Source: Pseudomonadota bacterium
GTDB lineage: Bacteria; Pseudomonadota; Gammaproteobacteria; QQUJ01
Direction: 5' to 3'
Assembly: GCA_008501635.1 (NCBI GenBank)
Contig: QQUJ01000010.1
Location: 434,001-498,000, forward strand
DNA length: 64,000 nucleotides
A model generated the notes under the pieces. That model was given only the letters and a program-made list of their open reading frames with translations. It was not told the DNA's origin and searched no databases. Positions 40,846-59,095 of the stretch are shown here, one piece after another (the first letter of the stretch is position 1; each line of letters starts with the position of its first letter). The position numbers and the translations under genes are program-made.

Positions 40846-41154
40846 ATGTCCTATTACCGTCACCACGTCTTCTTCTGCGTCAATGAGCGCCAGGACGGCG
40901 AGCAGTGTTGCAGCCAAATGAACAGCCTGGCGTTGCGCAATTACGCCAAGAGGCGTTGCAAGGAGCTGAATATCTATGGTCAGGGGCAGGCACGAATCAA
41001 CACTGCCGGGTGCATGAATCGCTGTGCTGAGGGACCGGTGATGGTTATCTACCCCGAAGGGATCTGGTACACCTTCATCGACGAGAGCGACGTCGAAGAG
41101 ATCATTCAGGAGCACCTGATCCACGGGCGTATCGTCGATCGACTCAGGATCTGA
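40846..41154 (+). CDS. Thioredoxin-like [2Fe-2S] ferredoxin
   Basis: 102 residues. Cysteines are in the thin-ferredoxin arrangement: HVFFCVNERQDGEQCC near the N terminus and INTAGCMNRCAEGP further on. VMVIYPEGIWYTFIDESDV is typical. It is a small cytoplasmic electron carrier. The start at 40846 follows the REP element by 50 bp. Confidence 0.9.
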   Translation: MSYYRHHVFFCVNERQDGEQCCSQMNSLALRNYAKRRCKELNIYGQGQARINTAGCMNRCAEGPVMVIYPEGIWYTFIDESDVEEIIQEHLIHGRIVDRLRI

Positions 41155-41176
41155 ACCGATTATGGGAAAAAGCGGC

Positions 41177-41205
41177 TTGACAGATCATTGGAATATTAGT
41201 ATATT
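41177..41205 (+). promoter_or_regulatory. Strong sigma-70 promoter of the candidate sRNA
   Basis: TTGACA (41177-41182), a 17-bp spacer and TATATT (41200-41205) form a near-consensus promoter. Transcription would start near 41212, in a region with no gene. Confidence 0.75.
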
Positions 41206-41211
41206 CTTATC

Positions 41212-41337
41212 AACTGAACGCCTTCACGGGTTCGCAGGATGGATTTTCGATATTCGTATGATTGAGAGTCGGTCCCACCCAATCCCTCATCCTCCCTGGA
41301 TGATTTAGCGCGGCCCTCACTTGCCGCGCTTTTTTTT
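41212..41337 (+). ncRNA. Candidate small RNA between the ferredoxin gene and rplM
   Basis: About 125 nt between a near-consensus promoter and a strong intrinsic terminator, with no plausible coding frame. The 3' half holds a small hairpin TCATCC-TCCCT-GGATGA (41287-41303) directly before the terminator stem. The exposed UCCUCCC segment is complementary to Shine-Dalgarno sequences. It could be a trans-acting sRNA or a terminated leader of rplM-rpsI. No known RNA family is recognised. Confidence 0.55.
41307..41337 (+). terminator. Intrinsic terminator of the candidate sRNA
   Basis: Perfect stem AGCGCGGC (41307-41314) / GCCGCGCT (41323-41330) with an 8-nt loop, followed by seven more T residues. 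It lies 167 bp before the rplM start. Confidence 0.9.
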
Positions 41338-41504
41338 GCCCGAAAATCAGGGTCATAAAGTTGTAACACTACGGTTGAATATTCCCGGGACCGGGCATCG
41401 TGCGGCGCTGGCTGCACACCGAATCAAACTTGTAACTTCCTGGTGACTTCTGTATATTTCCCGCTCTTTCGATTCTGGCAATGCAAGTTGGAGCCCGGCT
41501 CAAG

Positions 41505-41933
41505 ATGACTACGCTTAGTGCGAAACCGGCTGAAGTGAAGCGCGACTGGTTCGTGGTGGATGCCTCGGACAAGGTGCTGGGACGGCTGGCAACCGAGATT
41601 GCGCTGCGCCTGCGCGGCAAGCACAAGGCCGAGTTTACCCCTCATGTGGACACCGGCGATTATATTGTTGTGGTCAACGCGGAGAAGGTGCGTGTGACCG
41701 GCAACAAATTGAAGGACAAGATCTACCATCGCCACACCGGATATATAGGCAATCTCAAATCGGTCAGCCTCGAAAAGCTGCTGGCCAGCCATCCGGAACG
41801 GGCGATCGAGACTGCCGTCAAGGGCATGCTGCCCAAGAACTCACTGGGGCGTGCGATGTACCGTAAACTGAAGGTTTACGCCGGTCCCAATCACAATCAT
41901 CAGTCCCAGCAGCCGCAGCCGCTGGATATCTGA
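41505..41933 (+). CDS. rplM: 50S ribosomal protein L13
   Basis: 142 residues from the ATG at 41505 (the frame is open further upstream but exceeds the E. coli protein). It matches L13 throughout: [38 protein letters not shown] and [20 protein letters not shown]. rpsI follows after 34 bp as in other bacteria. Confidence 0.98.
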
Positions 41934-42375: not shown

Positions 42376-42449
42376 TGGGGGATCGTCTAACGGCAGGACA
42401 GCGGACTCTGACTCCGCTAATCTAGGTTCGAATCCTAGTCCCCCAGCCA
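42376..42449 (+). tRNA. tRNA-Gln (CTG anticodon)
   Basis: A 74-nt cloverleaf with encoded CCA. The acceptor stem TGGGGGA pairs with TCCCCCA; the anticodon stem GCGGA/TCCGC encloses loop CTCTGAC, giving anticodon CTG; the T arm is TAGGTTCGAATCCTA. It resembles E. coli tRNA-Gln. A perfect terminator overlaps its last three bases. Confidence 0.95.
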
Positions 42450-42486
42450 TTAAAAAACCCGCCCGTAGTGGCGGGTTTTTTAATGG
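42447..42486. terminator. Bidirectional intrinsic terminator after tRNA-Gln
   Basis: A perfect 17-bp stem (42447-42463 and 42470-42486) with a 6-nt loop, flanked by A and T runs on either side of a CCCGCC/GGCGGG core. The stem begins in the tRNA 3' CCA. The identical hairpin occurs again at 42619-42658. Confidence 0.9.
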
Positions 42487-42602
42487 CTTGTGGGTCGAGG
42501 GGTGAGCACCTAGTCAGGTTCGACCAGCCGAGCCGCAGGCTCGGCGCAGAACGTCGGAGCGCAGCGACGGCGGCCCGAAGGGTGAGGCGCGCAGCGCCGA
42601 AT

Positions 42603-42690
42603 AATCCTAGTCCCCCAGCCATTAAAAAACCCGCCCGTAGTGGCGGGTTTTTTAATGGCTTGCGGTCGAGGGGTGAGCACCTGGTCAGGT
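42603..42690. repeat. Second copy of tRNA-Gln 3' end plus terminator (direct repeat)
   Basis: This 88-bp stretch repeats 42431-42519 with two or three differences. It contains the last 19 nt of tRNA-Gln (AATCCTAGTCCCCCAGCCA, 42603-42621), the whole terminator hairpin and about 30 bp more. The spacing is 172 bp. The acceptor, D and anticodon arms are missing, so it is not a second tRNA. A shorter related block (GAACCGCAGGCTCGGCGCAG, about 42774) echoes sequence after the first copy. Confidence 0.85.
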
Positions 42691-44817: not shown

Positions 44818-44844
44818 AACCGATCTTCTCGGTTTGGATGCAAG

Positions 44845-44871
44845 CGGGCGCCTTCGGGCGCCCGTTTTTTT
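44845..44871 (+). terminator. Intrinsic terminator after porin gene
   Basis: Stem CGGGCGCC / GGCGCCCG with a TTCG tetraloop followed by seven T residues. Confidence 0.95.
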
Positions 44872-51770: not shown

Positions 51771-51960
51771 GACACCCCCCGCCTGTGCCGTAACGGGCTA
51801 CCGCCCTCGAACCAACGGTTCAAGTGGGAGCGCTCGGGACTGCTTCAGGCTTTCCACCGTAGTGGACATGCACACCAGCGTCGCCATATCGCGCACCCAG
51901 GCGACAAATTTAAGGCTCAAAGGGATTTCCGAGCCCGTTTCGAACACCGCAGGGGATGTC
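51771..51960 (-). ncRNA. ssrS: 6S RNA
   Basis: About 190 nt on the reverse strand between zapA and the formyl-THF ligase gene, the conserved ssrS position. The RNA ends pair (GACATCCCC near 51960 with GGGGGGTGTC near 51771). The conserved segments GAGCCTTAAA and CTTGAACCGTTGGTTCGAGG correspond to E. coli 6S RNA. A large open central bubble would mimic an open promoter and bind sigma-70 RNA polymerase. Ends are estimated. Confidence 0.82.
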
Positions 51961-58835: not shown

Positions 58836-58909
58836 GCAAGTGGTCGCGGGCGATGATTGTGCTATAGTCCTGCCCTCAACCGGGGAGCTCAAAACAGCTC
58901 CTCGACCCT

Positions 58910-59095
58910 TGCGGGAGAGGGCCGGTCTCTGCACCGGCCGCCGAAGGCGCAACACGCCCGGAAACGCTCAGGCAAAAGGACCGTAAAGGCTCAGGTTGAC
59001 TCTGGAGAGTGGCCGTCCCAAGGGCGACCCACCGACGGGGCTGGAAGCGATCGATGATCGGTTTCCTGAATCTCTCAGGTTTCTAGGACAGAGGG
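58910..59095 (+). promoter_or_regulatory. Glycine riboswitch (tandem aptamers)
   Basis: Two adjacent aptamers precede gcvT. The first has GCGGGAGAGG, CCGCCGAAGGCGCAA and CGCTCAGGCAAAAGGACCG. The second starts at about 59000 with CTCTGGAGAG, has a variant core CACCGACGGGGCTGGAAG, and ends CTCTCAGG...GGACAGAGGGG. A small hairpin (GGAGCT/AGCTCC, 58883-58900) and a TATAGT -10 (58862-58867) lie upstream. Glycine binding should turn on the gcv genes by preventing the terminator at 59093. Confidence 0.9.

Follow-up and report, generated by a model that had tools for sequence, protein, structure and literature searches.

The window analysed here is a 64,000-nucleotide stretch of a gammaproteobacterial contig (QQUJ01000010.1, positions 434,001 to 498,000). 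Within it, a predicted small RNA (sRNA) gene lies between a gene that we take to be ferredoxin-like and the rplM-rpsI genes, with the ATG of rplM near 41505 (Table 1). Both reading and a promoter scan bore out the promoter proposed in a first-pass annotation of this DNA, TTGACA-N17-TATATT: its −35 (41177-41182) and −10 (41200-41205) elements, separated by a 17-nt spacer, match 11 of 12 consensus positions. The scan, which covered 1.8 kb, returned three promoter-like sites including this one (shuffle mean, 1.0). With a start expected at ~41212-41213 and a T-run ending at 41337, the RNA would be about 125 nt long. The annotation had described this length as free of a coding frame; a 48-aa forward frame (41162-41308) does span the region, yet it opens with an ATG located 15 nt before the −35 element, which means that the sRNA cannot encode it. 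The hairpin said to present UCCUCCC was found as well (TCATCC-TCCCT-GGATGA, 41287-41303, containing TCCTCCC), as was the strong terminator that sets the RNA apart from rplM-rpsI, beyond which a further promoter-like site precedes rplM. The predicted RNA folds at −45.4 kcal/mol (z = −3.96; 1 of 200 shuffles equally good), its 5’ segment alone reaching z −1.63 (P 0.064). Elsewhere in the window we noted a 6S RNA (51772-51958, minus strand; 91.6 bits, above the Rfam cut-off), a glycine riboswitch aptamer (58902-58993, plus strand; 67.7 bits) and, at 42376-42621 on the plus strand, tRNA-Gln(CTG) and, after it, a borderline match to RtT RNA (45.6 versus 45 bits).

Table 1 Features at and around the predicted sRNA gene (window coordinates).
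Feature	Position	Strand	Basis or remark
(2Fe-2S) ferredoxin-like gene (assumed), upstream neighbour	40846-41154	+	also upstream in several relatives
Sigma-70-type promoter, TTGACA-N17-TATATT	41177-41205	+	sequence read and promoter scan
Candidate operator ATATTAGTATATTCTTATCA over −10 and start site	41193-41212	+	3 mismatches to ATATTAG-N6-CTAATAT
Predicted sRNA, ~125 nt	41213-41337	+	start from promoter, end from terminator (both inferred)
5’ hairpin of sRNA, sequence poorly conserved	41237-41275	+	folding
Anti-SD site 1, AAUCCCUCA (family consensus ACUCCUCC)	41281-41289	+	alignment, model R1
Hairpin 2 with anti-SD site 2, UCCUCCC (41290-41296)	41287-41303	+	folding, covariation, R1
Intrinsic terminator, stem AGCGCGGC/GCCGCGCT (41307-41330), T-run to 41337	41307-41337	+	
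Promoter-like site of rplM, TTGTAA-N17-TATATT	41430-41458	+	scan; 3’ of sRNA terminator
rplM (L13) frame	41481-41933	+	likely true start near 41505

A covariance search in relatives had been proposed, and we carried it out with a model, R1, built from 43 relatives with the window left out. Twenty-two of these sequences had been picked by their anti-Shine-Dalgarno (anti-SD) motif and the other 21 via position, DNA similarity or the Rfam family RF02278. Run against the window, R1 recovered the sRNA with a score of 55.4 bits (E 7.3e-14); against the whole genome, E was 4.5e-12. A second match in the window (44823-44871, 18.9 bits) was taken as a terminator. The genome also holds a second, weaker copy on the minus strand (C5:18523-18589; 33.3 bits), which contains CTCCTCCTCCTTTGGTGG and precedes a gene for a SUF-system Rrf2 regulator (TIGR02944); inspection by eye revealed no operator of the kind described below. 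Across a class set of 143 genomes, one per family, R1 matched 69 at E ≤ 0.01 and 52 at ≥40 bits, while a phylum-wide draw of 200 genomes returned E ≤ 1e-5 in six, five of them from the same class. The RNA is therefore not ubiquitous. A DNA similarity search of 56 genomes gave partial matches, four of the better ones (G033, G010, G047 and G009) just upstream of rplM.

Scanning a named genome collection with the motif CTCCAYCCTCCTTTGGTGG returned at least 118 stretches. The record titles of the 80 motif loci listed are almost all gammaproteobacterial, joined by one Comamonadaceae and one Gallionellaceae metagenome-assembled genome. Among these loci are Thiocapsa, Chromatium, Halochromatium, Thiohalocapsa, Thioalkalivibrio, Sedimenticola, Thiothrix, Thiodiazotropha, Beggiatoa and Thiomargarita, genera that we take to be sulfur oxidisers. 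One locus, from Thiotrichaceae bacterium STC_44 (L138, 5785-6024, plus strand), carries three tandem core motifs ~100-120 nt apart, and several Chromatiaceae loci (L084, L104, L150 and others) have the sRNA without rplM nearby, behind the promoter block TATTTAAGAAACT or TATATTAGAAACT. The exact 19-nt motif had no match in a collection of viral contigs, on which ground phage-borne copies were dropped from consideration. No description of this RNA turned up in the open-licence literature searched; the main text of a paper surveying new RNAs, Thioalkalivibrio included, mentions neither rplM nor L13 (PMC11109978). The family thus appears to be widespread in sulfur-oxidising bacteria and, apparently, undescribed.

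Most family members share one layout: promoter, variable 5’ hairpin, ACUCCUCC, a hairpin with CCAUCCUCCUUUGGUGG, a short linker and the terminator. Equivalents of the −35 and −10 elements were seen in 62 of 82 relatives among the motif matches listed. In the 43-sequence alignment, 97.5% of cells in the two 3’ helices are paired, with a covariation score that none of 500 shuffles matched; all eight pairs of the terminator stem show changes on both sides, and hairpin 2 shows none. Both anti-SD sites form nearly invariant columns, in an alignment that was in part (22 of 43 sequences) selected by motif. Folded sequence by sequence, 45 of 48 relatives give a 5’ hairpin with six or more base pairs, the mean z being −3.45. 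A guessed fixed-column version of this helix in alignment A2 paired in 35.3% of cells, no better than shuffles, probably because the helix varies in length and register. These data leave little doubt that the locus is a real, conserved, stand-alone sRNA gene.

The 3’ tail of 16S rRNA reads CCUCCUU, and the loop CCUCCUUU resembles this 3’ end; sites 1 and 2, by the same resemblance, should pair with Shine-Dalgarno sequences. Conservation extends over the promoter, the two anti-SD sites and the terminator together, with the sites frozen while the terminator stem covaries, and the nearest known relatives act on ribosome-binding sites. This supports a trans-acting RNA aimed at ribosome-binding sites, one of two readings offered by the first-pass annotation. 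That the RNA acts on ribosome-binding sites is, on this comparative evidence, a prediction we make with good confidence.

Many relatives share TATATTAG immediately before the −10 element. Anchoring a half-site test on this block in 37 of 60 non-redundant promoters, we found its mirror half-site at a single spacing, 6 nt (z 11.6; the runner-up, 14 nt, had z 6.8). The inverted repeat ATATTAG-N6-CTAATAT over the −10 of the sRNA promoters is a new observation; neither an operator-like repeat nor a link to sulfur metabolism featured in the first-pass annotation. Exact copies number 63 in 41 of the 143 genomes, as compared to four for a reversed control pattern. Allowing up to three mismatches, the repeat occurs in 43 of 84 non-redundant sRNA promoters, the window’s included, against ~0.9 in dinucleotide shuffles, three for the reversed pattern and none in the region 200 nt further up; the other 41 promoters have no site at this level. 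Perfect copies lie in the sRNA promoter regions of loci L252 (genome G100) and L136. The window’s own copy is equalled by 1.7% of dinucleotide shuffles of the region, and at the three-mismatch level its genome shows no enrichment (41 sites versus 39 for the reversed control). An exact site in the same genome, before an RND adaptor gene (ATATTAGAAAATACTAATAT), resembles the family promoter consensus ATATTAGAAAAT-N-CTTACAT. The pattern was derived from sRNA promoters, so that its enrichment there is partly circular, which is not the case for the result at ArsR genes that follows.

A link to ArsR-type repressors came from the neighbours of exact operator sites. Among these neighbours are the gene of a BigR-like ArsR protein (L244, with two tandem sites) and soxX (L237, the protein scoring above its profile cut-off). 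Two exact tandem sites are found in the ArsR gene promoters of genomes G066 and G008. Exact sites (L250, L253, L237, L239, L242, L249 and others) also adjoin, besides soxX, genes for several RND adaptors, an OsmC protein and a PCMT-type methyltransferase, and some neighbours, such as pyrophosphatase and DUF1326 genes, have no evident sulfur link. Taken together, the exact sites suggest a wide regulon that a dithiol ArsR repressor would govern.

Using the L244 protein as query, we retrieved 16 matches in the 143 genomes (E ≤ 1e-20) and two in the window’s own genome (E ≤ 1e-5). At 16 of these 18 ArsR loci, the repeat occurs with 0-3 mismatches in the 250 nt upstream, and those 16 proteins carry Cys30 and Cys96; shuffles average 4.2-6.4 mismatches and coding regions give 4-8. 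Of the other two, L265 (G106) has the cysteine pair and no repeat in its 250 nt upstream, and L277 has neither. The closest ArsR protein of the window’s genome (L276) is 39% identical to the query, has the cysteine pair and is preceded by its own three-mismatch site. The best equivalog profile for L244 is BigR (NF040642), at 109.8 bits, against which L276 scores 77.4; with the cut-off at 155, both are BigR-like only and fall short of the BigR equivalog. At the level of the family, then, one operator is common to the sRNA promoters and the ArsR genes’ own promoters. Fur, IscR, SlyA, OxyR and other regulators were weighed, on general grounds, as owners of this operator.

The aligned cysteines at positions 30 and 96 are 66 residues apart, a distance reported likewise for Cys50 and Cys116 of the persulfide-sensing SoxR/sHdrR relatives (PMC12423496, PMC10451225). 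Persulfide sensing has been ascribed to SqrR, BigR and HlyU; for SqrR and HlyU, treatment with persulfide is reported to cause release from DNA (PMC10509353, PMC9995734). From these elements combined, we consider it probable that the sRNA family is under a dithiol ArsR repressor; for the window’s own copy, the balance tips only slightly in favour of such control. In the open-licence literature searched, we found no sRNA under BigR/SqrR-type control.

The sRNA also tracks a sulfur lifestyle. The gene soxB is present in 60 of the 143 class genomes, the window’s own included. Among the 52 genomes with the sRNA, 44 have it; among the remaining 91, 16 do (odds ratio 25.8; Fisher P 3e-15, kinship ignored). 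Given that related genomes are not independent, we treat this association as a lead. The exact operator, in turn, is found in 22 of the 52 sRNA genomes and 19 of the 91 others (P 0.008).

The same features might instead reflect a stand-alone anti-SD sRNA under growth-rate or constitutive control, with ATATTAG as a mere promoter element and the sulfur link as a product of shared ancestry. Only about half of the promoters have a site at up to three mismatches, the copy in the window is weak, the rplM neighbourhood hints at a translation theme, and the soxB association takes genomes as independent of phylogeny, all of which would fit. A promoter element, however, would hardly explain why the right arm is found at one spacing only, why the block keeps its form where the −35 is ~6 nt further away (L105, L112 and L114), why the repeat lies over the −35 instead in some genomes (L136 and L100), or why an identical repeat precedes dithiol ArsR genes. 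We therefore regard this alternative as unlikely, while still taking it seriously.

The first-pass annotation had also offered an attenuated L13 leader, that is, a cis-acting leader or attenuator of rplM-rpsI responding to L13 or translation. Position speaks for it: in 38 of the 52 carrier genomes (R1 ≥40 bits), rplM follows the RNA in the same orientation at a distance of 96-484 nt. RF02278 matches are so placed, at 101-484 nt, in 30 of 49 genomes, of which 46 had a located rplM. When loci were retrieved with rplM as the sole criterion, the RNA was present in 18 of 30, some of them in genomes that also contributed to R1. Against it stand the conservation of the terminator, the variable distance to rplM, a separate promoter-like site for rplM after the terminator, and the many copies away from rplM, one weaker copy in the window’s own genome among them. 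The gene rplM was located in 131 of the 143 class genomes. In 14 of the 52 carriers the RNA is found away from it, contradicting the idea that the structure is conserved only together with rplM. Among the motif loci listed, 33 of the 82 motif matches are followed by rplM within 700 nt and three by a more distant rplM; 12 are no more than 1 kb from the end of their locus, and 34 have enough sequence around them but no rplM. An rplM leader, with its structure tied to rplM and to read-through, was consequently rejected as very improbable. Slightly more improbable still is a by-product transcript or a merely conserved terminator region that regulates nothing: terminator-like places alone do score ~19-28 bits with R1, but the near-invariant anti-SD sites lie outside the terminator, and promoter and 5’ hairpin are conserved along with them.

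We thus favour, with a probability of roughly 0.6, a stand-alone, trans-acting sRNA that would block Shine-Dalgarno sequences and be derepressed by reactive sulfur. The RNA, its promoter and terminator, the operator and the recurrence of the operator at repressor genes are computed features, from which we infer transcription, repressor binding, the sulfur response, the targets and the direction of the effect. The operator, which across the family covers the promoter, would be occupied by a dithiol ArsR protein akin to BigR, SqrR and YgaV, so that the sRNA would be made only once sulfide or persulfide has displaced this repressor. Site 1, which is unpaired, and site 2, in a hairpin loop, would then base-pair with the Shine-Dalgarno sequences of mRNAs and keep the 30S subunit from binding, so that translation of the target mRNAs led by such sequences would fall. 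Hfq, which is encoded in the window’s genome, probably takes part, as with the betaproteobacterial S17/bdhR1 RNAs. The fuller picture, in which a persulfide-sensing ArsR protein of sulfur-oxidising gammaproteobacteria silences an anti-SD-mimic sRNA whose derepression slows translation initiation, either broadly or selectively, is tentative, its chances falling just short of even.

If true, ribosome use would be tied either to sulfide stress or to the changeover to sulfur oxidation. The searchable literature yielded little on regulatory RNAs of sulfur oxidisers—purple sulfur bacteria, Thioalkalivibrio, Beggiatoa-type bacteria and animal symbionts—for which this would be a common sRNA with a candidate regulator.

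At the sRNA locus, an Rfam scan gave no match at family cut-offs. The best weak match, to RF02278 (Betaproteobacteria toxic sRNA), reached 34.1 bits (E 2.8e-5), and membership was rejected against a gathering cut-off of 50 bits; over the 143 class genomes, RF02278 matched 49 at E ≤ 0.01, only one of them above the cut-off. The members considered were Burkholderia ncS03, ncS05, ncS27 (presumably identical with bdhR1) and ncS62, Bordetella S17, Herbaspirillum Hsnc59 and others. The present RNA shares with them the CU-rich site 1, a second CU-rich site in the loop of a hairpin and the terminator hairpin. It differs in its hosts, which are mostly gammaproteobacterial (almost all of the motif loci listed) rather than betaproteobacterial, in a 5’ hairpin right at its start, in its synteny with rplM and in its ArsR-type operator. 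In the sole member inspected for the latter, the over-cut-off match L031, visual examination of 160 nt of upstream sequence revealed no operator of this type.

In the Burkholderia double-hairpin RNAs, the CU-rich sites are reported to target ribosome-binding sites; growth is slower when ncS27 is in excess and faster with an antisense against it (PMC5688073). Bordetella S17 is reported to be cut to a short form with sites matching ribosome-binding regions, and this form directly represses one tested target (PMC11722255). Slowed growth upon overexpression and RNase E processing to a short form are on record for RF02278 relatives (PMC5688073, PMC11722255). By analogy, the present RNA may work like these toxic or double-hairpin sRNAs of Burkholderia and Bordetella, which would then be set inside a much larger family.

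L13 leader RNAs share the location upstream of rplM, whereas the RNA described here has its own promoter and terminator and is also found away from that gene. To SorX, the sRNA gives a weak Rfam match (26.8 bits versus a cut-off of 46.6). The SorX/CcsR/cuckoo-type anti-SD sRNAs, which we presume to have CCUCCC-type sites and a terminator hairpin likewise, belong to alphaproteobacteria, a lineage other than that of the present RNA.

As for the candidate regulator, its likeness to BigR, SqrR, YgaV and HlyU lies in the cysteine pair 66 residues apart and in an operator near the −10 and −35 elements, the footprint of YgaV covering both elements of its own promoter (PMC9774250). The sulfur-oxidation gene soxX among the operator’s neighbours adds a further BigR/SqrR-type trait. 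The site itself differs, the published SqrR site reading ATTC-N8-GAAT and the present one ATATTAG-N6-CTAATAT. Beside the published transcriptional targets of BigR and SqrR, the sRNA would offer a candidate path by which reactive sulfur could act on translation.
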